Shown one piece after another: positions 22,193 through 64,000 of a stretch of DNA of 64,000 nt. The notes beneath the pieces are model-generated. The model had not been told where the DNA came from, searched no databases, and was given only the letters and a program-made list of their open reading frames with translations. This stretch comes from Symbiodinium natans. Taxonomy: Eukaryota; Sar; Dinophyceae; Suessiales; Symbiodiniaceae. Each line of letters begins with the position of its first letter. The stretch's first letter is position 1. The stretch is taken from contig CAJNDS010002525.1 in the NCBI GenBank assembly GCA_905221605.1, forward strand, positions 316,476-380,475, read 5' to 3'. The position numbers and the translations under genes are program-made.

Positions 22193-22195
22193 GTT

Positions 22196-24652: not shown

Positions 24653-24666
24653 TTGGGGCGGATTTA

Positions 24667-30640: not shown

Positions 30641-30711
30641 AACCCTAAACCCTAAACCCTAAACCCTAAACCCTAAACCCTAAACCCTAAACCCTAAACC
30701 CTAAACCCTAA
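30641..30711 (-). repeat. CCCTAAA array
   Basis: About ten perfect units. Confidence 0.9.
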
Positions 30712-31116
30712 CCCCCTAAACCCTAAACCCTCAACCCGGTGCAAGTCTCCCACACCTGCCTCGAGCGAGGATCGGTGCAAACTGTGGCCAGGGGAGCACG
30801 TTAGGGGTCTCGGTCTCTAGGGGTTTGAGGTTTTGGGTTTAGGGTTTGGGGGGTTTAGGGTTTAGGAGTCAGGGTTTCGGGGTTTAGGCCTTTGGGGGTT
30901 TAGGGTTTAGGGGTTGGGGGTTTAGGGTTTGGGGGTTTAGGGTTTAGGGTTGAGGGGGCTTGGGCTTGGGGTTTAGGACTGGGGGGTTCAGGGGTGTGGG
31001 TTTCGGGGACTAAGGGTCTTTTGAAGGCAAAGATGTTGCGTCTTCGGCAGGCTTCCGTCGGGCTTCGTGTCGAGCATTCGCGGAATCGGGTTGTCGACAA
31101 CACACCGAGAGACCGA

Positions 31117-31155
31117 CGCGCGCGCGCGCGCGCGCGCGCGCGCGCGCGCGCGCGC
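31117..31155. repeat. (CG)n tract
   Basis: About 39 bp of uninterrupted CG dinucleotide, a strong candidate for left-handed Z-DNA and for cytosine methylation. Confidence 0.9.
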
Positions 31156-33282: not shown

Positions 33283-33350
33283 TAAGGGTTTAGGGTTTAG
33301 GGTTTAGGGTTTAGGGTTTACGGTTTAGGGTTTAGGGTTTAGGGTTCGGA
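33283..33350 (+). repeat. TTTAGGG array
   Basis: About nine units with one TTTACGG variant. Confidence 0.88.
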
Positions 33351-34280
33351 AGAATGAAAAGCAAGGTCGACTATCATGACTCCCTGCCCACTGCGCAGGC
33401 CGACTGTAGCAACCGTAGACCCTAAACCCTAAACCCTAAAAGCCTATAAACCCTATAAACCCTATGCACCCTATGCCCTAAACCCTAAACCCTAAGCCCT
33501 AACCCTAAACCCTAAACCCTAAACGTCAACCACTTCCTCTGACGAAACTGCTCAGGGCCCCCACGGACCAAACGAGCCTCTCCTGCAGCGCGCTGGGGTT
33601 TGGGGTTTGGGGCTTAGGGTTTAGGGTTTAGGGTTTAGGGCTTAGGGTTTAGGGTTTAGGTTTCAAGGCTTAGGACTCAGGGTGCAGGGTTTGGGGCGTA
33701 AGGTTTATAGGGTTTACAGGGCGTATAGGGCTTGTAAGGTTTAGAGGGTTTGCAGGGTTTCTAGGGTTTGCAGGGTTTGTAGGCTTGATAGGTTTTATAG
33801 GGTTTATCGGGTTCAAGAGATTCATAGGGTTTGTAGGGTTGAGAGGCGTTTAGGGATTGCAGCAGACCCTGTGCAGCAGGCAGTCTGGCAAAGTCCTGCG
33901 GCGGTGTCGCGTGCTTGCTGGGATCAGCTACGGAGATGTTGAGGACACCGCCTGCAATCAACAAACGCAAGCGCTCGTGGCCGCAGCCGGGTCTAAGTTG
34001 AAGCCCTAAACCCTAAACCGACCCTAAGCCCCAAGGCCTAAACCCTAAACCCTAAACCCGACTTCCCGGCTTTTGAGCCACCTGCCTAAACCAGAACCTA
34101 CTTGGCGGTTCATGGGGTGGCTAAAGTTGAGGTTAGGAAAGTAGGGTATTTATAGCTAGTTAAGCCGGTTCTGCGTATACATATAACTGCATAAAGCAAT
34201 AATAGTGTGTATTCATTTATGTGTGTAACCGTATTAGGGCATCTAAATGATGATAGCATCACGCACAATAGGCGCCTAAA

Positions 34281-34985
34281 TACTTAGAATAAGGTATAAA
34301 GGAGCCACAAGGGAATACTGTTAGCAAACATTACAGGAACCATCAGAAAACACTGGTAGTAATTCTTGAAGAAGCCATAAGCGAATACTGTGAGTAATTC
34401 GCCTCGGCTTCCTGCCGTCTGGAACAAGCAGACCCGGATCGGGCCACGCATTTTTTTTTTTTGGACGCCACCCCCCCCCCAACCCTCCCCCCTCCCCCCC
34501 CCCCCCCCTCCCCCCCCCCACCCCTCCCCCCCCCCCCCCTCCCCCCTCACCCCCCTCTCCCCCCCCCCCAACCCCCCCCTGCCCCCCCCGCCCTTTAACC
34601 CCGCTGCCCTTCCTCGGCTGCCGAGGCGGTGCGCGCAAGCGTTTACAATTATTCAAGAAACCATAAGCGAATACAATTAGTAACTTATTAAAGGAACCAT
34701 AAGGGAATGGTAATAGTAACTTATTAAAGGAACCATAATTAAGGGAAAATAAGAGTAACTTATGAAAGGAACCATAAGGGAATAGTATGAGTAACTTGTT
34801 AAAGGAACCATAAGGGAATACTCTTAGTAACTTATTAAAGGAACCATAAGGGAATGGTAATAGTAACTCAGTAAAGGAACCATAAGGGAATACTACTAGT
34901 AACTTATTCAAGGAACCATAAGGGAACACTATTATTTAGTAATTCTCAAAGGAACCATGAGGGAATACTCTTAGTACTTCTTCCG
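34281..34985 (-). repeat. 36-bp minisatellite
   Basis: Units of TAACTTATTAAAGGAACCATAAGGGAAT plus a variable 8-base tail repeat about eight times at 34677-34975, with two scattered units at 34321-34390 on the far side of the C-rich tract. Because 36 is a multiple of three, the minus strand stays open as a 12-residue repeat (FPYGSFNKLL plus two). The frame also runs through the C-rich tract, which argues that it is fortuitous. Confidence 0.8.
34451..34600. repeat. C-rich tract
   Basis: About 140 bp of almost pure C with scattered T and A, preceded by a T12 run. Prone to i-motif or G-quadruplex folding and to assembly error. Confidence 0.85.
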
Positions 34986-35071
34986 ACCCCTCTACTACGC
35001 CTGGGCTTGCCCCCAGGCGCTCCATGGCTGCTCGCTTGGCTTCATGCCTGGCGCGAGACATCAGGAGGACG

Positions 35072-35485
35072 AGGCTTTAGGGTTTAGATCTTAGGGTTCA
35101 AAGCTTTAGAGTTTTAGGGTGTAGATCTTGGGGTTTAGAGCTTAGGGTTTGGAGTTAGGGGTTTAGATCTTAGGGTTTAGAGCTTATAGGGTTTTGAGAT
35201 TAGGGTTACATCTTAGGGCTTGGGTTTAGAGCTTACAGGGTTTCGAGTTTAGGGTTTACATCTTAGTGTTTGGGTTTAGAGCTTAGAGGGTTTAGAGTTT
35301 AGGGTCTAGATCTTGGGGTTTAGAGCTTAGGGTTTGGAGTTAAGGGTTTAGATCTTAGGGTTTAGAGCTTACAGGGTGCAGAGTTTTGGGTTTAGATCTT
35401 GGGGTTTAGAGTTTAGGGCTTAGATCTTATTTTTGAGCTTAGAGCTTAGGGTTTAAATCGTAGGGTTTAGATCTTAGGGCTTAGG
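35072..35485 (+). repeat. TTTAGATCTTAGGG-type array
   Basis: Alternating TTTAGATCTTAGGG and TTTAGAGCTTAGGG units, about 14 bp each, apparently derived from the TTTAGGG heptamer with an inserted GATCT or GAGCT. Confidence 0.75.
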
Positions 35486-35949
35486 TGTATAGGGTGTTTC
35501 GGGTGTCGTCCCCCACCCCCCTCCCCCGTCTCCCTCCCTCCCCCATCTCACCCCCCCACCCCCCCCCCCGCCCCTTCCGCCCTGCCAGACACCTTACGAA
35601 ATTGGGTCTGTTCTAGGTCTAGGTACCCTAATTCAAACCTTAAAAATCAAAGAGCATCCATGTTGTTTTTCTGCTTGCTGCACTTCCGAAACAAGGACCA
35701 GGCAATCTCAGAGGCCGAAGCATGTGAACCCTGAGCCCTAAACCCTAAACCCTAAACCTGAACCCTCAACCCTGAGCCCTAAACCCTAAACCCTTATCAG
35801 GGCTTAAACCTCAAAGTAGCAGCGGGAATGCGAGGCAAGCCAAGCCGGAACCCAAACATGGAAGCAACCATACGGTGTACGGGTAGACATGAGTATATAT
35901 ATATATGTATATATATATGAGAGAGCAACCTTTCGGGTCTATTTAGCTC

Positions 35950-38880
35950 CTTCCTTTGTTTTAATAAGTGAAATTAAATTAAATTATTTAAATTATTTAA
36001 ATTATTTAATTGACTCCCATTAAATAATTGAGAAAAAATAAATAATTTAAATAAGCAAAATTATTTAATTTATTTAATTGCCTCCCATTAAATAATTTAA
36101 ATAATTTAAATAATTTAAATAAGCAAAATTATTTAAATTATTTAATTTATTTAATTGACCCCTATTAAATAATTTAAACAATTTAAATAATTTAAATAAT
36201 TTAAATAAATTTAATTCCGGGAACTTTCCAGGCCAACCAGCAAAACAATTAAATAATTTAAATCCGACAGCTCAATTAAATGATTTAATTAAACTGCGGG
36301 ATCTAAACTATTTTATTGATTTTTTTTCTGGCTGGTCTGGAAAGTTTCCTGAATTAAATTTATTTAAATTATTTAATTTATTTAAATTATTTAAATTATT
36401 TAATTGACCCCTATTAAATAATTTAAATAATTAAAATAATTTAAATAAGCAAAAATTATTTAAATTATTTAAATTATTTAATTGGCTCCCATTAATTAAT
36501 TTAAATAATTAACATAATTTAAATAAGCAAAATTATTTAAATTATTTAATTTATTTAATTGCCTCCCATTAAATAATTTAAATAATTTAAATAATTTAAA
36601 TAAGCAAAATTATTTAAATTATTTAATTTATTTAATTCACCCCTATTAAATAATTTAAATAATTTAAATAATTTAAATAATTTAAATAAATTTAATTCCG
36701 GTAACTTTCCAGGCCAACCAGCAAAACAATTAAATAATTTAAATTCGACAGCTCAATTAAATAATTTAATTAAACTGCGGGATTTAAATTATTTAATTGA
36801 TTTTTTTCTGGCTGGTCTGGAAAGTTTCCTGAATTAAATTTATTTAATTTATTTAATTTATTTAAATTATTTAAATTATTTAATTGACCCCTATTAAATA
36901 ATTTAAATAATTAAAATAATTTAAATAAGCAAAAATTATTTAAATTATTTAAATTATTTAATTGCCTCCCATTAAATAATTTAAATAATTTAAATAATTT
37001 AAATAATTTAAATAAGCAAGATTATTTAAATTATTTATTTTATTTAATTGACCCTATTAAATAATTTAAATAATTTAAATAATTTAAATAATTTGAATAA
37101 ATTTAATTCCGGGAACTTTCCAGACCAACCAGCAAAACAATTAAATAATTTAAATCCGACAGCTCAATTAAATGATTCAATTAAACTGCGGTATTTAAAT
37201 TATTTAATTGATTTTTTTCTGGCTGGTCTGGAAAGTTTCCTGAATTAAATTTATTTAAATTATTTAATTTATTTAAATTATTTAAATTATTCAATTGACC
37301 CCTATTAAATAATTTAAATAATTAAAATAATTTAAATAAGCAAAAATTATTTAAATTATTTAAATTATTTAATTGACTCCCATTAAATAAAATAATTTAA
37401 ATAAGCAAAATTATTTAAATTATTTAATTTATTTAATTGCCTCCCATTAAATAATTTAAATAATTTTAAATAATTTAAATAAGCAAAATTATTTAAATTA
37501 TTTAATTTATTTAATTCACCCCTATTAAATAATTTAAATAATTTAAATAATTTAAATAATTTAAATAATTTAAATAAATTTAATTCCGGTAACTTTCCAG
37601 GCCAACCAGCAAAACAATTAAATAATTTAAATCCGACAGCTCAATTAAATAATTTAATTAAACTGCGGGATTTAAATTATTTAATTGTTTTTTTTCTGGC
37701 TGGTCTGGAAAGTTTCCTGAATTAAATTTATTTATATTATTTAATTTATTTAATTTATTTAAATTATTTAATTGACCCCTATTAAATAATTTAAATAATT
37801 AAAATAATTTAAATAAGCAAAAATTATTTAAATTATTTAAATTTTTTACTTGACTCCCATTAAATAATTTAAATCATTAAAATAATTTAAATAAGCAAAA
37901 TTATTTAAATTATTTAATTTATTTAATTGCCTCCCATTAAATAATTTAAATAATTTAAATAATTTAAATAAGCAAAATTATTTAAATTATTTAATTTATT
38001 TAATTCACCCCTATTAAATAATTTAAATAATTTAAATAATTTAAATAATTTAAATAAATTTAATTCCGGTAACTTTCCAGGCCAACCAGCAAAACAATTA
38101 AATAATTTAAATTCGACAGCTCAATTAAATATTTTAATTAAACTGCGGGATTTAAATTATTTAATTGATTTTTTTCTGGCTGGTCTGGAAAGTTTCCTGA
38201 ATTAAATTTATTTAAAATATTTAATTTATTTAAATTATTTAAATTATTTAATTGATCCCTATTAAATAATTTAAATAATAAAATAAATTAAATAAGCAAA
38301 AATTATTTAAATTATTTAAATTATTTAATTGACCCCCATTAAATAATTTAAATAATTAAAATAATTTAAATAAGCAAAATTATTTAAATTATTTAATTTA
38401 TTTAATTGACCCCTATTAAATAATTTAAATAATTTAAATAATTTAAATAATTTAAATAAATTTAATTCCGGGAACTTTCCAGGCCAACCAGCAAAGCAAT
38501 TAAATAATTTAAATCCGACAGCTCAATTAAATGATTTAATTAAACTGCGGGATTTAAATTATTTAATTGATTTTTTTTCTGGCTGGTCTGGAAAGTTTCC
38601 TGAATTAAATTTATTTAAATTATTTAATTTATTTAAATTATTTAAATTATTTAATTGACCCCTATTAAATAATTTAAATAATTAAAATATTTTAAATAAG
38701 CAAAAATTATTTAAATTATTTAAATTATTTAATTGCCTCCCATTAAATAATTTAAATAATTTAAATAATTTAAATAAGCAAGATTATTTAAATTATTTAT
38801 TTTATTTAATTGACCCTATTAAATAATTTAAATAATTTAAATAATTTAAATAATTTAAATAACTTAAATAAATTTAATTC
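35950..38880. repeat. AT-rich satellite with higher-order palindromes
   Basis: Nearly 3 kb of the nine-base word ATTTAAATA and close variants, about 85% A+T by eye. Embedded in it are six full copies of a roughly 140-bp imperfect palindrome and one truncated copy, starting near 36215, 36696, 37108, 37584, 38064, 38466 and 38878. Each is bounded by TTCCGGGAACTTTCCAGGCC and CTGGCTGGTCTGGAAAG. Spacing alternates between about 480 and 410 bp, so there is a higher-order unit. No gene. Confidence 0.9.
36215..36353. repeat. Cruciform-forming palindrome, reference copy
   Basis: The arms CCGGGAACTTTCCAGGCCAA and (other end) CTGGTCTGGAAAGTTTCC are reverse complements with few mismatches. Between them lie inner palindromes, AATTTAAAT and AATTAAATGATTTAATT. 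The GC-rich arms conserved among copies contrast with the drifting AT spacers. Confidence 0.8.
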
Positions 38881-39948: not shown

Positions 39949-41151
39949 TGGTTCTAAGTCTTGCTTATCGGGGGGTAAGTGTTCGTAAGTTTCGAGAAGC
40001 AAATATATATATATATATGTGTAACACTGAATTTCAAACCCCCTTAAACCCTTAAAGGCTGCGTATGTGGGGTGGTTCTAAGTCTTGCTTATCGGGGGGT
40101 AAGTGTTCGTAAGTTTCAAGAAGCAAATATATATGTAACACTGAATTACAAACCCCCTTGAACCCTTAAAGGCTGCGTATGTGGGGTGGTTCTAAGTCTT
40201 GCTTATCGGGGGGTAAGTGTTCGTAAGTTTCAAGAAGCAAATATTTTTGCAACACTGAATTTTAAACCCCCTTAAACCCTTAAAGGCTGCGTATGTGGGG
40301 TGGTTCTAAGTCTTGCTTATCGGGAGGTAAGTGTTCGTAAGTTTCAAGAAGCAAATATATATGTAACACTGAATTTCAAACCCCCTTGAACCCTTAAAGG
40401 CTGCGTATGTGGGGTGGTTCTAAGTCTTGCTTATCGGGGGGTAAGTGTTCGTAAGTTTCAAGAAGCAAATATATATGCAACACTGAATTTTAAACCCCCT
40501 TAAACCCTTAAAGGCTGCGTATGTGGGGTGGTTCTAAGTCTTGCTTATCGGGGGGTAAGTGTTCGTAAGTTTTAAGAAGCAAATATATATGTAACACTGA
40601 ATTTCAAACCCCCTTGAACCCTTAAAGGCTGCGTATGTGGGGTGGTTCTAAGTCTTGCTTATCGGGGGGTAAGTGTTCGTAAGTTTCAAGAAGCAAATAT
40701 ATATGCAACACTGAATTTTAAACCCCCTTAAACCCTTAAAGGCTGCGTATGTGGGGTGGTTCTAAGTCTTGCTTATCGGGGGGTAAGTGTTCGTAAGTTT
40801 CAAGAAGCAAATACAAATGAAACCCTGAATTTTAACCCCCCTTAAACCCTTAAAGGCTGCGTATGTGGGGTGGTTCTAAGTCTTGCTTATCGGGGGGTAA
40901 GTGTTCGTAAGTTTCAAGAAGCAAATATATATGTAACCCTGAATTTTAAACCCCCTTAAGCCCTTAAAGGCTGCGTATGTGGGGTGGTTCTAAGTCTTGC
41001 TTATCGGGGGGTAAGTGTTCGTAAGTTTCAAGAATCAAATATATATGTAACCCTGAATTTTAACCCCCCTTAAACCCTTAAAGGCTGCGTATGTGGGGTG
41101 GTTCTAAGTCTTGCTTATCGGGGGGTAAGTGTTCGTAAATTTCAAGAAGCT
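39949..41151 (+). repeat. 114-bp tandem array
   Basis: About 10.5 copies with GTGGTTCTAAGTC starting at 39949, 40072 and then every 114 bp to 41098; the first unit is longer by a TA expansion. Each unit contains TTATCGGGGGGTAAGTG, a TATATATG stretch and CCCCCTTAAACCC. Copies differ by few bases, so homogenisation is recent. The array marks the boundary between the repeat-rich left and the gene-bearing right. Confidence 0.93.
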
Positions 41152-46690: not shown

Positions 46691-46971
46691 CGAGCAGTAA
46701 ATAAAACAATTCAGAGTTTTAACACTGTGATGCATAAAGCATATAACAATGCAGAGTAAGTAAAGCGCAATAATTCGGAAAACACATAGCGCCTTAACGG
46801 TGTGCATCTGGATCGGCGCAACCTTGGAAGTTGAGTTGGCACTTCTGCGTGCCCACAGCCCGAACCGCCAACCGAAAGAGTCACGTAGGTTAAGGGTTTT
46901 GGACTCGTAACTTTTGAATAGTGACAAATGCCTATAGTCAGTTCATCAAGCAAGCAGTGCGTCATGCGCAG

Positions 46972-47372
46972 GTCAGAAGAAGTTCGCTGAAGTTTGCCTG
47001 ATCGACGCCATCCGATCACACGGCGTAAAGGTCCCTTACAGCTGCGACGGACCTTTCTGGGCACTCAGAAACGGCAACGAAATGCTGCTTCCATTCGAGA
47101 CACTCAGCAGAACTTGTATTGCAATGTATTCAATCCCTATAACTGCACGAGCCAGCAAACTAAGGAAGCGCCTGACACCGGTGCCTACCAAAAGCCTATC
47201 ATCTTTCGGCGAATACATCGTTTTGGCTGACAATCACTTCGTAGCTGTTCGCGTTGACGAGAATGGCTGCGAAATTAATTTCACCAAGCAGCGACATTTA
47301 TGGGAACGAGCGTGTCTCTCGAACACGGAGGCACTTTGCGAATTATCTCTAATCGATAAAATTGCATGCTGA
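46972..47372 (+). CDS. Exon-like fragment with a peptidase-like His motif
   Basis: A frame of about 130 codons opens right after a GCGCAG|G acceptor-like site. It reads KKFAEVCLIDAIRSHG, then VPYSCDGPFWALRNG, then EYIVLADNHFVAVRVDENG, and ends at TGA 47370-47372. The NHFVAVRV block resembles the histidine strand of papain-fold peptidases and the PHCVAVQF block of the large protein at 52797. No cysteine motif of the GNC type is seen in this piece. It is probably one exon or a remnant of a longer gene; start and partner exons are unknown. Confidence 0.4.
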
Positions 47373-49077: not shown

Positions 49078-49607
49078 CAACACCAGCATTGCGAATATGC
49101 ATTTCAGAATCTGCGCTTGCGAGGACGTCCAGCAGCTATGTAGCAACGTCGTCAACATCTTCTGATGCAAGGTCACGCGGGACAATTACTACACAAAGAT
49201 GCTTGTTTGTGTATTGCGCGGCATCATCTGAGAAAGCAAGCGCATGTCGAATCCTGCAGGTGCGAGAGAAGTGATGCCGCGGCCGACTTCCAGCCTATAA
49301 CCAAAGCACCGAATCTCAGCAGAAATATCAAACTCAATGCCTCACACGTTTGCAACTAATGACATCATAAACAGAATAGTACAACATTGGTGAACAAGTG
49401 GCACGCAGCTGCCAATACGTATGCACCTTCTTCGTCGTTTGCAGGCGATGGAATCGGCGTCAGGAGCAAGATGGCAAAGGAGGCGCTTCAGAGTTTTCGC
49501 AGGATTGCGTGCCGGCGATACACGAGACCTCCTCCACAAATCGACGATGCAGAATTTTTTTCTTCGGACAACGACGAAGTACACTTATTGGGATTTCGCC
49601 TGGCGAG

Positions 49608-52307
49608 GTTCCCTTTGACGTAGTCGCGCGGGCATACAACATCAACAGACCTGGCTGTCGAGCTTTGCCTGCAATCCTATTCGACAAAGAAGTGCGTACC
49701 CTCATGTTCATGGCAGTGCCTTTCTACCCACTGGGAACTACACGCATCTCATTCTGTTTATTTGAGTTAGGCGACGCCGGAATCGAGCAAGCAGTAATCA
49801 TTCCTTTCTTACCTTATCCCAGTTGGGACGGCATTTGGTCGTATCTCGACATTGCTTTCGGATTTCTGAAAACGCGCGGAAACAGATACCGCCTTGAAGT
49901 TGGTGAATGTTGCCTTCAAGAAAGCGATGATATATCCTGGCTGCCAGTTGGCTGTCATGTACGACTGACAAGTGAACGCCGCTCAACGCAAATAGCACTT
50001 CCGCCATTGGCAGGATCTGCGTTCGCCTGGCCAGAAACGGAAGACATGTTCGTCCGCTGGTTTCAGAGCGAGCATACAATTCTGAAAGCTGCCATGTGCA
50101 GACGGCGACAACTTTGTTATGCTTGCGGCCGCAGAGTTTCGGATTTTGATTACAAGAAGTACATCGGCTGCGCGAGACAAGGAACGCTGGGGCAGCATTG
50201 TGCCGATACATGCAGTGATGTGTCGCATCTAATCCGACCACGCGGGCCTGCAAAAACACAGTATGAAATTCAGATTCCAATGTGCATCCATCCTGCACTT
50301 ATCAGTCTGTACCTGGGCACGCTACATGCTTTCGGTAATGACTTCGTGAATTTCGAACTACTGCCAGGCTCTACTGTCGGGAAGCCCATCTGGCAGGAAG
50401 CAGCAATTGTGTCCGGCTTCAGCAGAAAACAAAGCATGTCAGGTGACCCATGTGCAGATGATGAGGATGCTATGGGTGGCAGCACAGAGTGCGTCGCAAC
50501 AGAGTACTCTGTGAAGCATCATGAGAAAGACAGCGTCTTCGCTGCAGAACCCGCGCTCCGCAAATTTCTCGCGACGTCAGAGGCTGCCAACGCAGGGCTG
50601 TGCACGCAACTGGCATTCGAACGTGTTCATTGCCGTGACGAATGCTATCAGTGCATCGAAAACGGCTCTGACGATAGCTGCCTTGCCGCGGATCTCATGA
50701 GAGTGGCGTGCTGCCTGCAAGCCCAACAAAAGCAAGTTCATGAGCAAGATGATGCGAGTACAGCTGCTGTGCTGGCAGCAAATGCGCAGGGTAACAAGCG
50801 CTGGGACGCAGACGACTTCGACGGCATCGGAGGCAGTCTTCCTCTGGATGTTGTCAGAGATCTAACCCTGTTTCATTTTTCGCCAGCTCATCTCAGGACA
50901 CTGGCTTCCACCTGCCGAGCACTGAAGGAGGCCGTGCGAGACTCTAGTCGTTGGCAGAACAGAGTCTTGTACTTAGAGGGGGACGAGTTCCATGATCGCT
51001 CTGTAATCAACTCGATCCTACCTATTTGCAACATCGCAAGCGCGGCAAGTGTGAGATGCAGGCAACTTTGTTTATTCCCAACTATGCCGCAAAACATCTA
51101 TGTTAGTATGCCAGTGCAGCGTATGCGCTTGCCTGGCAACGTCGGAACGGACATTCTCGGTTTCCACTCCATAGGTCCGATGATGGGAAGAGCAACGTTC
51201 GACCTCATCCTCCCTGCATCTACTTGTGGCCTTTACATGGGCGTTAAGGAATGGCGGGGAATCAAGAGATCATATTGTCGTATAGACAATCTATTCAGAA
51301 GCAACGCAACTTGGTCCTATGGCTTGAACGGCGAAATGCCTCGTCCTCATTACGGCAGAGAACGGCATCAGATTCGAGCAGACACCGTCCACAACTTCGC
51401 GCTCGAGTGGAGCAGCCATTGCTTTGAAGTCTCACTCGATAACGTCGGGGTGACTAGAATTACCACAAACGCCAACGGCATGGAGATGGCGCCTCCCTTA
51501 GCAGAAGTGTTCGTGTGGCTGTACAGGCGAACACACGCAGACGATTTCCAGCCAAGCTTCAGGTCTAAGCCATCTCCTTTATCTCACACTGCGACAGTGA
51601 AGTGCAGCATCTGCGCGCAGACGAGATGCATCACTGCAACACGTTGGAGAGTCTGCCCGACGTGTTCGACATGGATGTGCCACAGGCATGTGCTACATCA
51701 CCCAGACCGCTTATGCCCTTTCTGTCCTGCTCAACTTCAGGATGCTCTCGGGGGCAGTAGCGACTACTTGTCAGTTACAGTTTCTGCTGCGGCGAAGCTT
51801 GAGGCTGACAAGTTTCCCTACGTGCACGCAGCCACATACTATAAAAGAATGCAATGGCATCTCCAATCTGATTGCAAGTTCCATGGCGTCATAAACAAGA
51901 TCCTGCGCAAGCACGCGGATGTTTGGAACAACATGCCTGAGGCACTGTACTTGCTGCCTGATCCGGATGAGAAAACCAGTATGGCCAAGCGACAGTGGGA
52001 ACAAGTTCTCCACAGAGCGAGAATCATATTGGACTTGCTGCACCAAGGCCAAGACGTCGTGTTATACCATTTCATTTACGATCAGGCTCGCCGCTTGAGG
52101 CCAGATCTCGGCGATACTCTCTTGCATTGTCCTCACCCGACTTCATTTTCTTCCTTAGAAGAGTGGAGACGTGTGGCCCTGCGTTATGCTCTGGAGATCC
52201 ACGTATCGCTGGCAGAAGCTCGCTGTGAACACGCAGCCAGAGTACTCCAGAAAGTTGCAACGTCTCAATCAATCGCGTCTTGGCACTGCAGAATGTATAA
52301 GTTCTAA
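49608..52307 (+). CDS. F-box / SPRY-like / RING-like protein, about 900 aa
   Basis: The frame is open from 49398 with no good ATG until codon 103, but protein-like sequence starts after GGCGAG|GTT at 49605-49608. I take 49608 as the first base of an internal exon. Numbering from 49398, a CYACG...C-x3-C cysteine cluster lies at 235-275. Residues 378-465 (VFAAEPALRKFLATSE...) match the helicase C-terminal module of the next gene. An F-box-like segment (LPLDVVRDLTLFHFSP...LASTCRALKEAV) lies at 480-515. A SPRY-like stretch (GLYMGVKEWRG, WSYGLNGE, FALEWSSHCFEVSL) lies at 610-700, and a Cys-rich RING-like finger (CSICAQTRC, CPTCSTWMC, LCPFC) at 735-780. F-box plus SPRY suggests a ubiquitin-ligase adaptor; this is inference. 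It ends at TAA 52305-52307. Confidence 0.6.
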   Translation, partial: VPFDVVARAYNINRPGCRALPAILFDKEVRTLMFMAVPFYPLGTTRISFCLFELGDAGIEQAVIIPFLPYPSWDGIWSYLDIAFGFLKTRGNRYRLEVGECCLQESDDISWLPVGCHVRLTSERRSTQIALPPLAGSAFAWPETEDMFVRWFQSEHTILKAAMCRRRQLCYACGRRVSDFDYKKYIGCARQGTLGQHCADTCSDVSHLIRPRGPAKTQYEIQIPMCIHPALISLYLGTLHAFGNDFVNFELLPGSTVGKPIWQEAAIVSGFSRKQSMSGDPCADDEDAMGGSTECVATEYSVKHHEKDSVFAAEPALRKFLATSEAANAGLCTQLAFERVHCRDECYQCIENGSDDSCLAADLMRVACCLQAQQKQVHEQDDASTAAVLAANAQGNKRWDADDFDGIGGSLPLDVVRDLTLFHFSPAHLRTLASTCRALKEAVRDSSRWQNRVLYLEGDEFHDRSVINSILPICNIASAASVRCRQLCLFPTMPQNIYVSMPVQRMRLPGNVGTDILGFHSIGPMMGRATFDLILPASTCGLYMGVKEWRGIKRSYCRIDNLFRSNATWSYGLNGEMPRPHYGRERHQIRADTVHNFALEWSSHCFEVSLDNVGVTRITTNANGMEMAPPLAEVFVWLYRRTHADDFQPSFRSKPSPLSHTATVKCSICAQTRCITATRWRVCPTCSTWMCHRHVLHHPDRLCPFCPAQLQDALGGSSDYLSVTVSAAAKLEADKFPYVHAATYYKRMQWHLQSDCKFHGVINKILRKHADVWNNMPEALYLLPDPDEKTSMAKRQWEQVLHRARIILDLLHQGQDVVLYHFIYDQARRLRPDLGDTLLHCPHPTSFSSLEEWRRVALRYALEIHVSLAEARCEHAARVLQKVATSQSIASWHCRMYKF

Positions 52308-52414
52308 TGCACTTTTACTACTTGAGCGCAGCTGTATAGATTGCATTCGTTTTTGTGTGTTCATCGTTTCCCCAGCGATCAAAGTGATTGCATCCGCGCG
52401 ACCGTGTCGAGGAT

Positions 52415-52480
52415 CAAACCAACAAATTTGCAGACGATGATCTCGACGGTCTGGGTGGATCAGTGCCTGGTTGCAAATTA
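52415..52480 (+). pseudogene. Short duplicate of the F-box entry sequence
   Basis: Reads DDLDGLGGSVPG before a stop, echoing DDFDGIGGSLPLD just ahead of the F-box of the upstream gene. Probably a tiny duplicated remnant. Confidence 0.4.
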
Positions 52481-52589
52481 AACTAGGTCCTGTTACCTTC
52501 ATAGACACATAATGTCGTTTACCTTCGTTAAAATGCGACTACGCAATTATTAGAATGCGCGCCTGAATCAAACCTGATCATTTGCTCAG

Positions 52590-52650
52590 GACGGTCAAGA
52601 ATCAGATCATGAAAGCGAAGAAGCCATGGACGTTACTGACGTTTCTGCGG
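52590..52650 (+). other. Possible upstream exon of the large gene
   Basis: Follows a TTGCTCAG|G acceptor-like site and reads DGQESDHESEEAMDVTDVSA, an acidic stretch, in the same frame as the first recognised exon. An in-frame TAG near 52693 means an intron would be required. The donor is not obvious. Confidence 0.3.
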
Positions 52651-52796
52651 CAGGACTGCGAGTTGTCTTTGTATTTTTCTCAGAGAGTGTGACATAGAAA
52701 ACATAGGCAGTCCTGCACGAAGGAGGCTGGACTCACCCCCTCGATTCAATTGTGGGTGAAGTTCTTCGTCGCGACCCCATACCTCGGATTTTTCAA

Positions 52797-55700
52797 ATGC
52801 CCTCTCAGCCTGAGACCGCAGCGACAGCGTCCTTGAGCGCATGTACGGATCTGGCCAGAATCAATCACTTTCCCACCGATGAGTTCTTGCGCTTCGAGTC
52901 AGAGGGACACAAGTACTTCTACAACGACACAGTCGTCGGATGCAGCGCTACCTGGCTGGCTTGCATCTTGCCACGTGCGTAGTGAAATATATACATAGTA
53001 AGAGTTGGCAAAAAGCAACCTCTTAGCGTTTCTAAGTTATTTCGTCGAGGTTACCGCCCTGATACACGAGTTTTCCGAAGAGTTCGATGCTACACTTGCT
53101 TTACAAAAAATGAAGTCTGGTCGAAATTGGCCTCGAAAGGAATATATTGCGCCCGACGCAGACTTCAAACTTATTGGCGCCATGTTAATCGGCACGGACT
53201 TCTTCTACCAGGCAGATCTCGTTGAAGAGCTCAAGAAGACTCCGCCAGACCTCAGCAAGATTTGCGAATTGTTCGTTGCAAGCCGTGCGGAGCTGAACAC
53301 GTGGGACGAGATCATGGCGCATCTCGTGCTTCACGATAACGAGATTGCTGATACGTGGAATCTCAAAAGGGAAAGGGCAGCGAACTGCGGCACTTGGATG
53401 CATGCAATGCTTGAACATTTACTGAATGGCTATCAGATTTGTCCTGGCTGCATGGAGGGTGAGCTTAATGCTGCTATCCGCGCACTTGAAAAGATGGGCA
53501 ATGTCGAAGTATTTCGAACCGAATGGTGTGTTCATGCTCCGGAGGAGGACCTAGCTGGATCCATCGACGTGGTACTAAAAATCAAAGGTTCCAGTGAATT
53601 CATTGTGCTGGACTGGAAACGCAGCGAGAAGTTGAAGGATAAGTTCAATAGTTACGGCAAAAACATGAAAGTGCCGCTGCAAGAGGTGCCGGACTGTCAA
53701 GGACACCATTATCGTCTTCAATTGAACACCTACCGCTGGATCTTGGAGAGGTACTACGACATAAAAATTGTCAAGATGATAGTTGTCTGCGTGCACCCCA
53801 ACTATCTTCCAGACGGATTCATTGACGAAGTTCCGGATATGCAAGAATCTGTTTCGCAGCTTATGGATGTCAGAAGACAGCAGTTGCTTGCCAAAGCAGC
53901 AGAAACACGCGCGGACGTTGCAATTCCAGCTACAGAACCCTTTGAAGTTCGCTTGTCAGGAACTGCGGCACATGACGGCGATCATTTTGCCGATGAATTT
54001 AAAGCGGCTCTGAGTATTCTTTTGGATAATGACACTGACGAGGTGCCGCAGGCTGCAAAGAAACGGAGACGCATGCCAGGAGCTGACAAAACATCGGATC
54101 AGTTCCAATCTATGTTTGAGAAGTCAAAACACTGCATATCATCCGAGTTGAACCTCGTGACGCCTGACGTGAAGAACAGCAGCAGTGAGATTGTCAAGAG
54201 TACGAATGCATCTTTGGGTCAGCTCAGGCAGGTTTTTCCTACAGCGTCCGAAGAGCTCTTGCGACTTATTATGGTGGCCGCTTACATTTCTGAAAAAAAC
54301 ATTGCGGACAAGATTATGCTGTCAGATGCTGCCGCAGTTTTTTGGCTTGTGGAGGGCGGAAGACACGTTCGAGTTCATAAGGGCTTCTTACACATTTACA
54401 ACGACGACGGCTCTTTCGTGACGTTCGGAGGAATTCCTCCTGAGGCTGCGCTTCATCGGATATCGAATTTCTTCACTGAGTTGGAAGGAATCTACAGACG
54501 AATGAAAGATGATGTGCAGAGGAACAGTCAAGCCATCGCGACAGCGATCGTAAGCGATTCTCAAAACTTTCCAAGTGAAGCTGTATTTCTGGAGAATTGT
54601 CGGCGTGCTGCCAGAAGCAAAAAGAAAGTTCAAGCTGACGCGCGTCTCGACGCAGATCCGGATGAGCAACGTGCCTGTGAGGAAAATGAAACAAGCAATG
54701 ACTCATGGACCGATGACTTGGCTGAGAAGACTTGGAAAGTCTGCTGCGTTTTGAAGTTTGAGCTCATGCAGACGCGCATGATCTCGCTTATCGTGGAATG
54801 GTGCGAAACCGAAGACCAACGAGAGGCAGCGGTGTGCTACAATGATTCCTGCTTTGTGTACGATCGGCCAGGGTCAGAGCAACACATCGAGGCAGTCAGA
54901 AAAGGTCCGGCGAACAACTGCTACGTGCACATTCCACATAATTTGCTGGACCCTGTTCTCGATGCCAATATGAAGCGCTTGGAGCGATTTTACGAACAGA
55001 CATTCTGGTGTAACTTCAAGGTGTTTCAATGCTTTCAAGCAGCGCTCGCCTTGGCAAAGCGAGGATTGAACATCGACAGATGTTTCATAGGCATCTCTCC
55101 AGGCGGCGTTGGCCAGAGTCTGTATTCGTTACATCTTTCTGAGATGTACAAACAGCATCACATGTTCTTCGACCCAAATGTCTGGCACATGGAAGAAGAA
55201 CTACGGAAACAGGCTGAGTCGCTCGCTAAGTGCTTTATTTTGACTGGTCAGGAAGCGCCAGAAAGTAGCAAGAAGCTACACATAGATCTTTTCAAGAAGA
55301 CTATGTCTGGAGACGGCATTATGGGCCGCAAGCCGTATGGCTACACTACGCGAATGTGGCAGATCGTCGGCTGGAAGCGACTTGAAATGAACCGAATGAT
55401 GAACTTCGCTGGCGTCTCCGTTTCCAATTTTAATTCCATGTTCAGACGTGGATTTGTATGGAAAGCCAAAGCTCGCTTCATACATCAGAAGTTTCTCTGC
55501 AACTACCTCGATCATGAGAAAGACGGCATCTTTGCAGCAGACCCCAGCCTCAATAAGTTCCTTGCAACATCACAAGCCTCAGTGGCAGGTCTTCGAATAC
55601 AATGGGCGTTCGAGCGTATGCATGGTCGCGATGCATGCTACCAATTCATCGAAGATTACTGCAACGGCGAGGATAATTACATCACGGAGGATGTTATGAG

Positions 55701-58700
55701 GCAAGCCTGCGGTCTACCAGTGCGACACAGACAAGTACAAGAAGAAAAAGATGTCGGCCTGGCCGCCGTCCTCGAAGCAGATGCTGAAAGTCAAAAGGCA
55801 CGGGACGCAAAAGACGATGAGTGGGACAATTTTCGACAGTTCTTGTTCGACACAATGCTTTCTTCTGGCATGGAGTTGCTATCGTACACCGAGTTCAAGA
55901 AGCTGACGTTGAGGAACTCCGGAATACCAAACATGACTAAAGAAGCATTGTGGGATGCAGTGGAAGCGCAGCGCGTGCTTCGACCTGGAATTGTGAAGCA
56001 CAAAACCAGCAAGGTGAAGCCAGGATCGTTTCTGCCTTTCATGACTTTCGCGCATGACTTCAAGGACATTTTGCCTCCGGTGAGTGAAGATGATGTTAGA
56101 ATGCATTTTGAAGAGCAACACGACATTCAGAAATTGCGGAGCTATGCGTTTTCGCATGGCAGTCGACGGCGCAGCGCGGAAGTGTTAGAGGCACATCACA
56201 AGAGCGCCTGTCAACGTCTCACTGGATCCGACGCAAAGAAAGGCAGGAGGCAGGCAGACATACAGGACGCTATGCGAGAACACAAGAGTGCACTGCTGAA
56301 GCTGAAGGCTCACGAGGACAGCATCAAGATTGTGCTTCGCGGCGACATTGACACGTCCACCGGCGTCAAGGCTTCTCAGCGAAAACGTTACACGCCAAAA
56401 GAGTTGCAGTCGGAAGAGCTTCCCTCATCGCAAGACTCTGCTTTCCGGACTTTAGTGTCCAAGCAAATCAAGTATCACTATCCTGCTGAGCCGGCCTACT
56501 CAGTGAAGCCCCGTCGCTACAGTGGTGCTGGCAGCGCACAGGCCATGTCCCGAAGACTGCAGGTACATGTTCTGGATGCGCATTGTGTAGATTTAGACAT
56601 TCAGAACTGCTGCTTGACCCTTGTTTATCAAATCCTGGAAAAGATCAAGCCCACTCCAGCTTTGCCGCAGAAATTAAGTGAGCTGCTGTATGAACTCGCT
56701 TACAAGCGCGAGGATTTCTTTCGCAAAATCAATGCACATCATAGTGAAGGAAAGCAGCTGGTGAATACGGTGGTGAATGGCGGTCGCATACCAGACAACT
56801 TCAAGAACGACGAGAATGTACAGTCGCTTCAGAAGCTGTCTTTATATCTCCGCTGGACAGCTTGCAACCTTCTTCACGATGACTACCTGAATCTCAAGGA
56901 TGTCAAAAGCAAACCATTCCCTGAAGCGACTGTGTTTTCGCTTATGTGGCATGCAGTTGAAGATCGGATTCTTCAGTGCTGGTCCGAACATGTTTTGCGA
57001 CAAGACCAGAAGCCGCTCCACGTTTCTCTGCACTTCGACGGGATGCGAGTGTCGCGCAATGCAATTGTCGATATTCCGCAGTTTTGCAAATCTTGCGAGA
57101 AAGAAATCGAAGAGAAGGTGTTGTTCAAGGTTAAGATCGTTCAGAAGATCGGGCGAGACTTTCTTTCTGCAGCTCGAGAAAACGCAACTGCAGTTCCGCC
57201 TCGACAGTCACTTCCTGATATCTGCACTCGGGCCGGAAACTGCATACCGTGCGCTTTGTGGCATATCGCTCCTATTCTCCGCGAAACCATCGTGTCGTCG
57301 CTTAAAGATGCGAACTCCGATGCCAACAAGGAGGCTGCGGAGGTTGGCTACAGATCCTATCGCAGCGCAAATGTTCTTTACAAAGCTGATTTAGAATCCA
57401 GTTTGGGTCTTCCACATGACAAAGTTCAATCCTTTATGCTTCATGCAGAAGGCAAAGGTCGTCCTCACTGCGTCGCAGTTCAATTTTCAAGTAAAAGAGA
57501 CACTGTCATGATTTTTGACGCGAAGGAAGGTTTCCGAGTGAGCGCTGAACAGTTTCAAGAAGCTTTTGCGAGTGCAGTGGATCGCAGCACTATCGCATCC
57601 TACTGGCTGAGACAGTCGCGAGAAGCAGATACTGCGCACGTCAACGAGCTTTTGGATATGGTCGCAGGCTGCAGTTCCGAAGAGTCTGACGACGATGGCA
57701 ACAATCTGCCATCTTTGTCTGCGTCGAGAATTGATTTCGACTCGGAAGGCCGCCCTTTTATTTCTGACAACATCATGCAGCGTTTGGAGCGTGAGGTTGC
57801 AGACATGCTGGAGAACTTGGATTCCAATTGCAAGGCTGTGAACGGCAAGCGCAAATGCCCGTTTTGTCCGTTTCGTTCTTTCACTCGGCTAAAATACCTG
57901 CGCACTCATGTGACGAAATATCACAGTCTGCAAACACAGTTTGTCGCCAGTGGCACGAAGCAGACGAAAGTCATTCTGGCGCTGTACGACAACGACGCTT
58001 CTTTGCAGGTTCAGACGACGGCTCTGCTGCGACGCAGCGCAGAGGTGCTTGGAAAAACTATTCGGCCGCCTCTCGAGACCACGATCAATCTTGTTGACAA
58101 GCATATTTGTCTTGTCTTCGACGACAGTGGGCCTGTCTACTTGAACGCAAGTGCTCTTGGCAAGTCAGTCCACGTGCGCAGAGTCGGCAATATCTACTAC
58201 ACGCACAAGTTTGCGGACATGCTTCTCCGTGAAATGGTCATGAGTCACGCTCAGGTGTGCTGCACGCACACGGTCGTAGTTCTTGTCTTTTGCATTTGAC
58301 GTAGTAAAATACTTAAATTCTACTTTCTGACATGTCGGGTTAGTCTGATATTTCTTTTGAAAGGTGAGAACCATCTGGCCTCGTTGCCATTTGGCAGCTA
58401 TGCAGTCCGGCAACGAACTTGCCACACTGCTTCCTTCGCTCGGGCAGCACTGGCTTCCTATGCTGGAGGACATCACTGCGTCACCGGCGTACCAAGCCAG
58501 GCTGACGTCCATGGTAAAACATCTGGAAGCAGACAAGGAATGGCTGTATCTGAGCATGGACGCAACTCTGAAGGTATGCCTCAAGCTTAAAGGTCAAGAG
58601 TCCTATCGGGCCGCAGCTGAGAAAAGAAACAACGCTCCATTCGGAGATGATCTAGCATGGAGACGTTTGTTGACGGTGAGAGGCAGATCCAGCGCGGTGC

Positions 58701-59782
58701 TGCTTCTTCACCCTTTGCAATCAGAAAAATCTGAACATGTGGTGTCGGTGATGGAGGAATGTTTTACCGAAGAGCAGTTGAAATCAGTAGAGTTTGTCGC
58801 CACTGACAGTCCTTCTGCAAAATTTTACAAAGATCTGCGACAAATTTGTCCCAATCTGAAGGGAATGATGCTGGATCCAGTGCATCTCGCCATCGTCTAT
58901 GAGTACGGGCACTGGAACAAGCGCACGCCTGGATCCAAGACGCTACGCAGTCTTCTGAGAAAAACTGTTGCAGTGGACACATCGGAGAAGTCTCGCGACG
59001 TGTCCTTCTACGACGGCGACATGTCCAGACCTCTGGAGGAAGCCGAGGAGCAATGCAGAGACATGATTTTTTCAATGTCTATGCCTATAAGCCAGGCCAA
59101 CGACATACTTGCTGCAATGGAGTGCGACAAGCCGCTACGCAGCAGGATTGAATTCATCACATCGGTTGCAGCCATTTGTGCCAAATTCGCGCACGAAGTC
59201 AAGCGGAAGGCTGCAGGACCGAACAAGGAAATTTTTAAGATCTTGTGGTCCGCCTGCGCCCCGGATAGACTGGAATGGCTTATGAATAATGTGCGTGTGC
59301 GGCAGTCCGTCCCCAGCCATCATCTCCACTTCTTGCCGAGCGGTACTGCAAGCAATGAGGCGTTGCACGCCGAGATAAATTCATGGTCGCGCAGCACGAA
59401 CACTATGCACCGATCCACACTTGCCTTAAAACTACGTTATTATCGCTACATTAAGTTGCTGGCGCATCATCTGGCTAATTACTTTCCGCTGACACACATT
59501 GTCTCTGAGACTGCTCTGCTTAGCAGAGCCATGAGCAAATCAATTTGGACAAGTGAAGAGTGGACGGGGTGGTGTGCGGATCAAGAAACTTGCGGCAGAC
59601 AAAAGAAAGCGCAGCTGCCTCTTGTCGCAGCTCGTGAGAACGAAAAGCGGCTTTCCAAAAACTGGCTCGCCAAGCGACCAGCCGCTGCAACACGCAAGCG
59701 TCTAAAGTTGAAGAGAACTCCTCTTCAAGCTCTGAGACACCACACACTGCGAAGCTCAGGTGTGAAGAGCAAGTCGAAGTGA
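52797..59782 (+). CDS. Giant nuclease-helicase-peptidase-transposase fusion, about 2257 aa
   Basis: Join 52797-52946, 53050-58254, 58364-59782; the start ATG is the first in exon 1 and may not be the true start. In order: RecB/Cas4-like PD-(D/E)XK nuclease (H near 166, GSID 218-222, LDWKRS 237-242, QLNTYRWIL 274-282); a basic KKRRR stretch; D5-like SF3 helicase (Walker A-like GISPGGVGQS at 731 with Q for K, FILTGQE at 779, SGDGIMGR at 803, GWKRLEMN at 825, RR at 850); a helicase C-terminal module (877-945); a polymerase-palm-like part (LDIQNCC 1231, KQLVNTVVNGG 1286, LHFDGMRV 1378); a cysteine peptidase-like part (GNC, C1448; PHCVAV, H1523; D1540); a C2H2 finger (C1653, C1656, H1670, H1675); and a DDE transposase (D1851, D1933, DPVH 1956-1959, E2117 in SNEALHAE). 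It would cut, unwind and move the element in the nucleus. Nuclease, helicase and transposase are well supported, palm and peptidase less so. Confidence 0.75.
52947..53049 (+). other. Inferred GC-AG intron, 103 bp
   Basis: Removing it joins TGC AGC to GTT ACC, giving GCS|VTALIHEF, the continuous N-terminal motif expected of this nuclease family (SVT followed by FSEEFDA). The donor is GC and the acceptor is CGAG followed by G. Length 103 is exactly what is needed to change from the exon-1 frame to the exon-2 frame. The retained frame would stop at 52980. Confidence 0.75.
58255..58363 (+). other. Inferred GT-AG intron, 109 bp
   Basis: CAG|GTGTGC donor, a TTTCTTTTGAAAG|G acceptor with a pyrimidine run, phase 0 on both sides. 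Removing 109 bp moves the zinc-finger frame exactly into the transposase frame (SHAQ|VRTIWP). Without splicing the protein stops at 58299. Confidence 0.75.
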
Positions 59783-60496
59783 CGTGCTTCTAGTATCTTT
59801 TAGTCATCAACTGAAGTGCGTTGTTTTGTGTACTGTGACTTGCTGATGTATAGAAGAACGATGAAGAATATCTTCGCGCTTGACGCAAGAAAAGGCAGCA
59901 GTCAGCTGTGCTGCAAGTCACATGCTTTTGGCGGTAGTCGTAGTCGTAGTAGTCGCACCCCTAAAATTTCGGAATAAAATCATTTTACAGAAAATAATAC
60001 GACAGGCCAACTCTGCCTTTTAATATTGATTAAGAATTTGCTGGTTTGTTCTACGGTGTACGCTTTTCTTGTTCTCTCTGCGCCGGCCCGATCTGTTAAT
60101 CATCCTGCAATGTTTCTTTTGTTTTGCGCTTAGGTTATGTTGCGACTTCTTTAGTTTTTCTCACACTTTTCTTTTTCTGCTCTAAGTTGTTTTCTTATGC
60201 TCACCCTCTCTTGTGCCCCATCTCTACTCTTCCCCTAGCACATCTGCCTGGCGCTTTCAGATCACCGCATTTTATTAAGTAGAAACCTGTTTTTTTTTAT
60301 ATTGCGCTTAAATACAATATTGTAAGTTTTCCAGCGCGCTTGCTGTTGTTCTTCAAATAGATTTAAAGAACATATTGCATGTTTAAAATTAAATACATTA
60401 AATCGCAATAATAAATCGCGATAGTTTCAGATTCGGAATGTACTTATATATATATGTTGTCGAGTAGCGCTAATTTTCTCGCTGAGGCCACATCTA

Positions 60497-62439: not shown

Positions 62440-64000
62440 ACATTAACCTGGTGCGGTGCTCCAGCCCCTGCAGTCTCTGACTTAATGCTACATCCCCTAC
62501 AGTCTATTGTGGCTGAAGGCTGCTGTCCCTGCAGTCTCTGGCTACAGGCTACTGTCACTGCAGTCTCTGGCTTAAGGCAGTTTCTGGCTTAAGGTTGATG
62601 CCTCTGCAATCTCTGGCTGAAAGCTACTGTCTCAGCAGTCTCTGGCTTAGGGCTGCTGTCTCTGCTGCTCTGCAGTTTGTGCCTACAGGCTACTGTCTCT
62701 GCAGTCTCTAGCTTCAGGCTGCTTTCCCTGTAGTTTCTGCCTCAGTTTATGGCTACAGGCTACTTCAGTCTCTGGCTTACGGCTTCTGTCCCTGCAGTCT
62801 CTGACGACTACAGGCTACTGTCTCTGCAGTGTCTGGCTTCAGGCCGCTATCCCTGCAGTCTCTGGCTAAAGGCTACTGCTCCGGCAGTCTCTGGCTTGAG
62901 GCTGCTGTTTTTGCTGCCCCTGCTGGCTACAGACTAATGTCTCTGCAGTCTCTGGCTTAAGGCCGCTGTCCCTGAAATCTGGCTGTTGTCTCGCGGCCCC
63001 TGCAGTTTCTGGCTACAGGCTTCTGTCTCTGCAGTCTCTGGCTTAAAGTGGTGTCACTGCAGTCTCTGGCTCAAGGCTGCTGCTTAGTCTCTGGCTTAGG
63101 GCTGCTGTCTCTGCTGCTCTCCAGTTTCTGCCTACAGGCTATTGTCTCTGCAGTCTCTAGCTTAAGGCTGCTTGCCCTCTAGTTTCTGCCTCAGTTTATG
63201 GCTACAGGCCACTTTAGTCTCTGGCTTAAGGCTGCTGTCCCTGCAGTCTCTGACGACTACAGGCTACTGTCTCTGCAGACTCTGGCTTAAGGCCGCTGTC
63301 CCTGAAATCTGGCTGTTGTTTCGCTGTTTCGCGGCCCCTGCAGTTTCTGGCTACAGGCTACTGTCTCTGCAGTCTCTGGCTTAAAGTGGTGTCACTGCAG
63401 TCTCTGGCTCAAGGCTGCTGCTTAGTCTCTGGCTTAGGGCTGCTGTCTCTGCTGCTCTCAGTTTCTGCCTACAGGCTATTGTCTCTGCAGTCTCTAGCTT
63501 AAGGCTGCTTGCCCTGTAGTTTCTGCCTCAGTTTATGGCTACAGGCTACTTCAGTCTCTGGCTTAAGGCTGCTGTCCCTGCAGTCTCTGACGACTACAGG
63601 CTACTGTCTCTGCAGTCTCTGGCTTCAGGCCGCTGTCCCTGCAGTCTCTGGCTAAAGGCTACTGCTCCTGCAGTCTCTGGCTTGGGGCTGCTGTTTTTGC
63701 CTACAGACTAATGTCTCTGCAGTCTCTGGCTTAAGGCCGCTGTCCCTGAAATCTGGCTGTTTCTGGCTACAGGCTACTGTCTCTGCAGTCTCTGGCTTAA
63801 GGCTGCTGTCCCTGCAGTCTCTGGCTAAAGGCTACTGCCCAGTCTCTGGCTTAGGGCTGCTGTCTCTGCTGCCCTGCGTACCGGCTACTGTCTCTGCAGT
63901 CTCTCGCTTAAGGCCGTTGTCCCTGCAGTCTCTGGCTAAAGGCTACTGCCCCTGCAATCTCTGGCTTAAAGCTACTGTCCCTGCAGTCTCTGGCAGAAGG
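62440..64000 (+). repeat. 29-bp CTGCAG minisatellite, continues past window end
   Basis: Degenerate units of CTGCAGTCTCTGGCTTAAGG plus CTGCTGTCC or CTACTGTCT, more than forty copies. Higher-order repeats are visible: CTGCCTCAGTTTATGGC recurs at 62738, 63186 and 63523. Short frames inside are low complexity and not credible genes. Confidence 0.88.

Follow-up and report, generated by a model that had tools for sequence, protein, structure and literature searches.

The 64,000-nucleotide stretch of Symbiodinium natans DNA analysed here (contig CAJNDS010002525.1, positions 316,476 to 380,475; hereafter the window) carries, at 52797-59782, a gene that we read, with a probability of roughly 0.8, as the polyprotein gene of a giant DNA transposon of dinoflagellates, which has terminal inverted repeats (TIRs), measures ~22-33 kb here and inserts into (AT)n tracts. 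An earlier sequence-only reading of this DNA had proposed a large DNA transposon in which replication enzymes and a DDE transposase are fused, matched to no named superfamily, and that proposal is borne out by a conserved fusion, defined ends and unrelated insertion sites. A more far-reaching formulation stands at about even odds: a new superfamily of eukaryotic self-synthesizing transposons with retrovirus-like expression, whose giant polyprotein (nuclease, helicase, primase-polymerase, peptidase and DDE transposase) would be cut after the glycines of D-x-x-G-G-[S/A], with host-like modules (ankyrin, ubiquitin-like, F-box, RING-like) swapped between the sites, replication from AT-palindromic iterons and insertion into AT microsatellites. 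Coordinates below are window positions; the coding features and the 5' terminal repeat lie on the forward strand.

Splicing out two short introns, as previously claimed, gave a single frame of 2257 amino acids (aa) across 52797-59782 with no stop, matched by homologs that are fused in the same way. The frame consists of an exon with the start of the nuclease (52797-52946; the same exon is found in the copies C2080 and C1850, at 91% protein identity), a predicted GC-AG intron (52947-53049), a main exon with the nuclease, superfamily 3 (SF3) helicase, polymerase-like, peptidase-like and C2H2 finger regions (53050-58254, an open stretch of 1765 codons), a GT-AG intron (58255-58363) and an exon with the DDE transposase and the stop codon (58364-59782, an open stretch of 473 codons). 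The second intron is supported by DNA comparison of the window family with the C2080 family, because similarity breaks off at 58250-58256 and resumes at 58376. It finally ends at 59795, 13 bases past the transposase stop codon, and similarity to the C2103 stretch likewise ends at 59795. Homolog P0028 contains 24 additional residues exactly at the intron-2 point. The intron coordinates are predicted, and the joined frame is supported at the genome level.

A homolog search with the joined protein, in which 7980 candidates were scored, yielded 69 homologs, the named ones being from Symbiodinium, Polarella, Effrenium and Prorocentrum; five show 98-100% coverage at 35-51% identity. Segment-by-segment comparison placed helicase and transposase in the same protein in 23 of the 69, comprising 22 with helicase, polymerase, peptidase and transposase and one with helicase, polymerase and transposase. 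Helicase, polymerase and peptidase occur without the transposase in 33 homologs, helicase and polymerase only in three, and the helicase alone in eight, while two are without the helicase segment. The order of the segments is identical in 68 of 69, P0041 being the exception, so that the domain order expected of further copies is found in almost all of them. In 20 of the 33 transposase-less homologs, similarity is lost at residues 1785-1795 and the protein ends at most 30 residues further on; intron 2 falls between residues 1785 and 1786, and such a stop is expected if a gene caller left the intron unspliced. P0030, P0032, P0033, P0034 and P0050, all among the 23, align gap-free across window-protein residues 1711-1898 and appear to need no splicing. 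The fused homologs rule out chance adjacency of the exons, and at the genome level the two parts are neither always separate nor only chance neighbours, the outcomes that the sequence-only reading had named as fatal to it. Pattern searches found no relatives in 2.9 million viral contigs and none in prokaryote genome collections; a third protein search, starting from a diverged member, returned six proteins, three of them new and nameless.

Comparison with C2080 gave ratios of nonsynonymous to synonymous substitution rates (dN/dS) of 0.18 over 1733 codons of exon 2, with no stops, 0.05 for the transposase exon, where synonymous sites are saturated, and 0.32-0.34 for an upstream open reading frame (ORF) that is split between two frames in C2080. 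These values indicate purifying selection on the fused gene. Along 49500-59900, compared in 400-base steps, identity to C2080 is 91-98% at 49.5-52.3 kb, 77-90% at 53.9-57.9 kb and 64-72% at 57.9-59.9 kb, a mosaic that suggests recombination between families, swapping the finger-transposase end.

Scanning of the genome (759 Mb, 2543 contigs) revealed at least 93 matches to the transposase exon, pieces included (90 of the 228 candidates were scored); no internal stop interrupts 88 of the 93, many are partial, and several groups are identical on different contigs. Five copies, including that in the window, match this exon at 100%, and the four other window-family copies have 8.8 to 23.6 kb in common with the window at >99%. 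The 5' TIR of the window copy lies at 35919-35947, with (AT)n target DNA ahead of it, and agrees at 23 of 29 positions with the inverted 3' terminus of C491 and C2212. C491 and C269 have the same 5' terminus and C2117 has a close one, and the DNA to the left of it is unrelated between copies. At the other end, C491 and C2212 diverge after ...GCTAAATAAACCCTAAAGGTTCCGGGCTC, followed by AT-rich DNA, which marks the 3' terminus. At the end of the C1850/C2080 family these 29 bases recur with four differences, the rest of its downstream non-coding DNA aligning in short stretches only. A third family has its 3' terminus 1.3 kb after the stop codon, and seven of its copies stop at the identical base, their flanks being at most 45% identical over positions 19-40. 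In all, three families provided 15 copies in which the 3' terminus could be assessed, and 12 of these have it; the 5' terminus is present in 4 of 6 assessable copies. An (AT)n tract of at least 10 bp adjoins 4/4 of the 5' flanks and 11/12 of the 3' flanks, the exception being C2212; across the loci examined, 0.06% of positions are the start of ATATATAT. The same element is inserted at many unrelated sites, and the suggested alignment of flanks brought out imperfect inverted ends at unrelated (AT)n sites.

The diverged copy C2117:3801-25436 measures 21.6 kb from end to end. It was examined at 3801-9000, 17600-22684 and 24104-25436; its exon 2, at 58% identity, is open with no stop over the examined part, its transposase exon match is stop-free, and its two ends align to each other with a score of 26, where the highest of 500 shuffles was 22. 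The window copy would measure ~32.9 kb, made up of 28.1 kb to the end of the contig at 64000 and ~4.8 kb to the 3' terminus inferred from C491. Neither a TIR search within 44-64 kb nor a family-by-family inverted search produced a convincing candidate, since the element starts at 35.9 kb and its 3' end is past the end of the contig. Segmental duplication alone, considered for shared DNA of up to 23.6 kb and a seemingly tandem C1850, was discarded when real termini were found, and what had looked like breakpoints at 44621, 38932 and 55218, as well as the C1850 junction, turned out to be scaffold gaps of 100 N.

The previously claimed extent of the gene stands as a single frame over 52797-59782, but 52797 does not hold as the protein start, since relatives P0029 and P0051 are fused further upstream. 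The polyprotein is predicted to extend upstream of 52797, because 49380-52304 and 46974-47327 match parts that lie ahead of the nuclease in relatives. The upstream ORF (49380-52304, 975 aa) matches N-terminal parts of P0007, P0008, P0009, P0014, P0029 and P0051; it contains a weak F-box-like match (Pfam E 0.027, under the cut-off) and, by eye, SPRY-like and RING-like modules. Further upstream, the open frame at 46947-47327 has tblastn matches to P0051, P0055, P0056, P0047, P0029, P0035 and others at 28-62% identity, and at 46974-47327 a motif (C...H...N) points to an N-terminal cysteine-peptidase-like domain in the 5' part of the polyprotein.

Residues 381-479 of the upstream ORF duplicate part of the helicase C-terminal segment, being identical to the window helicase at 53 of 99 positions, and are flanked by two D-x-x-G-G-S sites (GG at residues 366 and 484), as if modules had been shuffled between cleavage sites. 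Candidate D-x-x-G-G-[SA] cleavage sites lie at 50466-50483, 50820-50837 and 51741-51758, with another at 49470-49487, near the start of the ORF, where coding is uncertain. A related candidate, D-x-x-A-G-[ASGC], is located at the peptidase/finger boundary (57655-57672) and is present in almost all relatives (A 58/58, G 56/57, D 48/57). Across the 69 proteins and the window ORF, D-x-x-G-G-[S/A] occurs 90 times, 84 of them outside the mapped core segments, where unmapped modules such as ankyrin blocks were counted as outside; 200 trials with shuffled residues gave a mean of 1.6 and a maximum of 5, compared with the 84 seen. Aspartate stands three residues before GG in 72/99 clustered GG[S/A] sites versus 15/115 sites with GG and another residue (background 5.9%). 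This pattern, of the kind expected from a protease that cuts at Gly-Gly, suggests a self-cleaved polyprotein. It is distinctly less likely, although far from negligible, that the motifs are flexible linkers or signals and that the protein works as one chain. Such a chain would fit with module junctions that have no motif, among them the window-family nuclease-helicase junction, which is without a GG site, and with a peptidase that is degenerate in some copies. Linkers are not normally so strict as the placement of aspartate (the S/A after GG was itself part of the query) and of 84/90 occurrences outside core segments would require. P0025, P0036, P0037 and further relatives have ankyrin repeats before or between nuclease and helicase, and the inserted ankyrin (and, by eye, ubiquitin-like) stretches are set apart by D-x-x-G-G-[SA] motifs. 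Pfam scans of full-length relatives gave ankyrin repeats and a sub-threshold finger for P0025, and no significant family for P0029 and P0051.

The transposase residues D1851, D1933 and E2117 stand exactly where the sequence-only reading had placed them and are nearly invariant; among homologs with a residue in the column, they are conserved in 114/117, 126/127 and 131/133, respectively. The domain has 146 database relatives, 120 of them listed. Foldseek gave weak matches to Mos1 and foamy-virus integrase (E 0.22 or worse; 0.35-0.65 for the foamy-virus integrase, with no Pfam RVE hit), and no Pfam family scored above cut-off in the eight members scanned; weak matches to three families, in one member each (best E 0.029), were judged to be chance. 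The relatives P0172 and P0179 are named 'Pol' in Symbiodinium annotations, perhaps as retroelement fusions or through mislabelling. The peptidase and the finger are the weakest of the domain assignments. The cysteine-peptidase-like domain (57205-57579) is recognised by motif only: C1448, H1523 and D1540 are kept in 49/56, 48/56 and 43/56 homologs, there is no Pfam or PHROG match, and its fold resembles USP/ubiquitin hydrolases weakly (E >0.3). The C2H2 finger (57856-57924) retains its ligands in 54/54, 54/54, 55/55 and 56/56 homologs, with a Pfam match below the cut-off.

As Pfam was almost silent on the long ORFs, domains were established from relatives, cut-out segments and folds. The RecB/Cas4-type PD-(D/E)XK nuclease (53050-53934), already recognised in the earlier reading, now has profile matches to PF12705 (22.1 bits; cut-off 22) and to the phage exonuclease family phrog_298 (E 1.8e-19). 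Its residues D223, D238-x-K240 and Q274, which we take to be the D, D-x-K and QxxxY motifs, are kept in 48/49 (D223), 50/50 (D238), 50/50 (K240) and 49/49 (Q274) homologs. For the helicase (54550-55800), an AlphaFold2 model of the window residues (pLDDT 78.4) matched AsfvPrimPol (E 1.9e-9) and poxvirus D5 (E 1.4e-7, TMt 0.64) in a Foldseek search of the PDB, consistent with the D5-like SF3 fold previously claimed. The Walker A motif (GxxxxGK[ST]) is altered: the P-loop reads PGGVGQS, with Q739 in place of the lysine, and the position is Q in 62/63 homologs and E in one. At the Walker B end and sensor, Q784 and E785 are kept in 61/61 and N831 in 60/62, with Q where D/E is usual before E. The domain is predicted to be an SF3-like helicase with an altered P-loop and a putative ATPase; that P-loop is the chief feature left without an explanation.

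What had been called a palm-like region can be sharpened to a superfamily-A/TV-Pol-like polymerase palm (56497-57219; D1231, D1233, K1285, D1380). A model of P0014 residues 1450-2566 (pLDDT 84.1) had Klenow/DNA polymerase I as its best Foldseek match in the PDB (E 0.027, prob 1.00) and also matched virophage replication proteins (Zamilon, E 1.1e-7; Qinghai Lake, E 1.6e-5). D1231 is kept in 57/58 and D1380 in 56/57 homologs, and an RR ahead of motif A is invariant in 7/7 aligned members. Sequence searches of the PDB with single ORFs, a whole-family profile and a transposase profile found nothing significant; EF-hand-type matches in the polymerase region (E 0.03 or worse) were judged to be chance.

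Several repeats accompany the ends. An AT-rich tandem, partly palindromic satellite lies just inside the 5' TIR (35990-38877; TRF arrays, self-match on both strands), and a similar satellite adjoins the 5' TIR in C491, in C269 and in the diverged C2117 family. The element also contains a 114-bp tandem array of 10 copies (40013-41150) and a 29-bp GCAGTCTCTGGCT-type satellite (62510-63994), and many TTTAGGG/CCCTAAA-type (telomere-like) arrays border the element at 30028-35794, on the outer side of its 5' end. Gaps of exactly 100 N in the scaffolds stand beside the AT satellite in C491 and C269 and in or near C2212 and C1850; elements of this kind may thus break assemblies and be undercounted.

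The mechanism most likely to account for these features is one in which the DDE transposase and the C2H2 finger would recognise the element ends, cut them and join them into (AT)n. The RecB/Cas4-type nuclease, SF3 helicase and TV-Pol-like polymerase would copy or repair the element, as in a self-synthesizing transposon, and copying may begin at the AT-palindromic repeats that lie inside the 5' end. A single polyprotein is probably cut at D-x-x-G-G-[S/A] and D-x-x-A-G-[A/S], after the second glycine and the glycine respectively, by its own cysteine peptidase(s), which would release replicase and transposase; copies with altered peptidase residues may use the N-terminal peptidase-like domain instead. 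We infer self-replication, end processing and proteolysis, the copying and processing of the element's own DNA being suggested by enzyme content and purifying selection. Selection has maintained the nuclease, helicase and polymerase, so that the element probably carries out its own copying or repair and does not depend on the host alone. A conventional cut-and-paste DDE transposon, in which these three enzymes serve repair, regulation or host interaction and not replication, is an unlikely but substantial alternative. The simple TIR and DDE architecture and the Walker A K-to-Q replacement would suit it; against it, the active-site residues of polymerase and nuclease hardly vary and purifying selection acts on the exon, which argues that spread depends in some manner on the replication enzymes.

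Some observations weigh against a self-copying transposon with a cleaved polyprotein. The evidence comes from genome sequence, with introns and polyprotein predicted. The glutamine in Walker A means that the helicase ATPase activity may be altered or lost, and the peptidase residues differ in 7/56 (C), 8/56 (H) and 13/56 (D) homologs. Sequence searches of Pfam gave no match for the helicase, the polymerase or the peptidase, and no PDB match of the polymerase-to-transposase model reached E 0.001. The TV-Pol RxxxK finger motif was not found in that spacing in the seven aligned members (the first has an invariant R and K 15 residues apart), and for this reason the polymerase is called TV-Pol-like and not a TV-Pol member. 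The inverted repeats are imperfect (23/29 for the window 5' versus C491/C2212 3' end, 21/29 for C2117). There is no matching 3' terminus within 10,000, 501 and 1,601 bases in C779, C1303 and C1723, respectively, nor a matching 5' terminus in C1850 and C2080. Because the target is (AT)n, no target-site duplication is resolvable, and 100-N scaffold gaps lie inside or adjoin several copies.

An integrated virus with capsid genes, either a Polinton/Maverick or a polinton-like virus, in which replication genes became fused by chance, is improbable. The size range and the TIRs do resemble those of Polintons/Mavericks. In the accessible text of the sources, polinton-like viruses are present in dinoflagellates (PMC12721341, PMC10120064) and the Sputnik virophage has a D5-like helicase/TV-Pol fusion (PMC2579912). 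Against this, the polymerase is family-A-like by fold, as opposed to the protein-primed PolB of Polintons, the viral contigs hold no relatives by pattern search, and three other ORFs of at least 200 aa in the window part of the element matched no Pfam family above cut-off, one of them with two weak matches (E 0.021 and 0.049), no capsid models having been run. A host gene family spread by segmental duplication, with no transposon involved, is very improbable: the long >99% stretches shared by the four window-family copies, the mostly open frames of the transposase-exon matches and the host-like look of the F-box-like, ankyrin and RING-like modules would suit it, but copies with unrelated flanks cease to match at one shared terminus, and that terminus is common to families whose downstream non-coding DNA otherwise aligns in short stretches only.

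No published description of the element was found among the open-access papers listed, with Repbase, bioRxiv and most subscription journals outside the search. TV-Pols are family-A-like minimal polymerases joined to a D5-like helicase, and in bacteria a transposase gene is at times their neighbour; the accessible text on them describes them as never fused or neighbourhood-linked to nuclease domains, with the fused helicase C-terminal (PMC2579912). The element is regarded as new because no description was found, because its polymerase folds as family A and not as the protein-primed family B polymerase of Polintons/Mavericks, and because TV-Pols are described as never nuclease-linked. The concept of a self-synthesizing transposon is already known, and on a stricter view the element could be called a new superfamily of this known kind. 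If the reading as a transposon is correct, an apparently capsid-free DNA element would carry a primase-polymerase-like enzyme, a helicase, a nuclease and a DDE transposase in one chain. It would tie transposons and the giant genomes of dinoflagellates to replication modules of the virophage type, and would present, in a DNA transposon, a Gly-Gly code for polyprotein cleavage that is open to testing.

Polintons/Mavericks are large self-synthesizing TIR elements with their own polymerase, peptidase and DDE-type enzyme, and the present element is likewise a large TIR element with a polymerase-like enzyme, a predicted peptidase and a DDE transposase. It differs in having an A-family/TV-Pol-like polymerase, a RecB/Cas4-type nuclease and an SF3 helicase in one polyprotein, a transposase without a Pfam family above cut-off, an (AT)n target, and no capsid or packaging gene in the parts examined, where no capsid models were run. 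The Polinton gene contents named here are also given in the accessible text of PMC6431247. With TV-Pol elements and Sputnik-type virophages it shares a family-A-like polymerase linked to a D5-like helicase; unlike in those, the polymerase comes after a nuclease and a helicase and ahead of a DDE transposase. Poxvirus D5 and the African swine fever virus (ASFV) PrimPol-helicase have the same SF3 helicase fold and likewise combine priming or polymerising with helicase functions, whereas here the polymerase is of a different family, the Walker A lysine is replaced by glutamine and no virus genes are recognised around. Gly-Gly proteases include those of asfarviruses and adenoviruses, with the catalytic order H-D-C, and those of the ubiquitin type. 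The predicted cut in a precursor after Gly-Gly or Ala-Gly is similar, but the order here is C-H-D, unlike that of the asfarvirus and adenovirus enzymes, and cleavage here is predicted from sequence. OmPLV of Oxyrrhis marina, as presented in the accessible text of PMC12721341, is a dinoflagellate element that also has a fused helicase-polymerase; there, the helicase is SF1 and is combined with pPolB, and a capsid gene and a tyrosine recombinase are present, in separate genes, in contrast to the single predicted polyprotein of the S. natans element.

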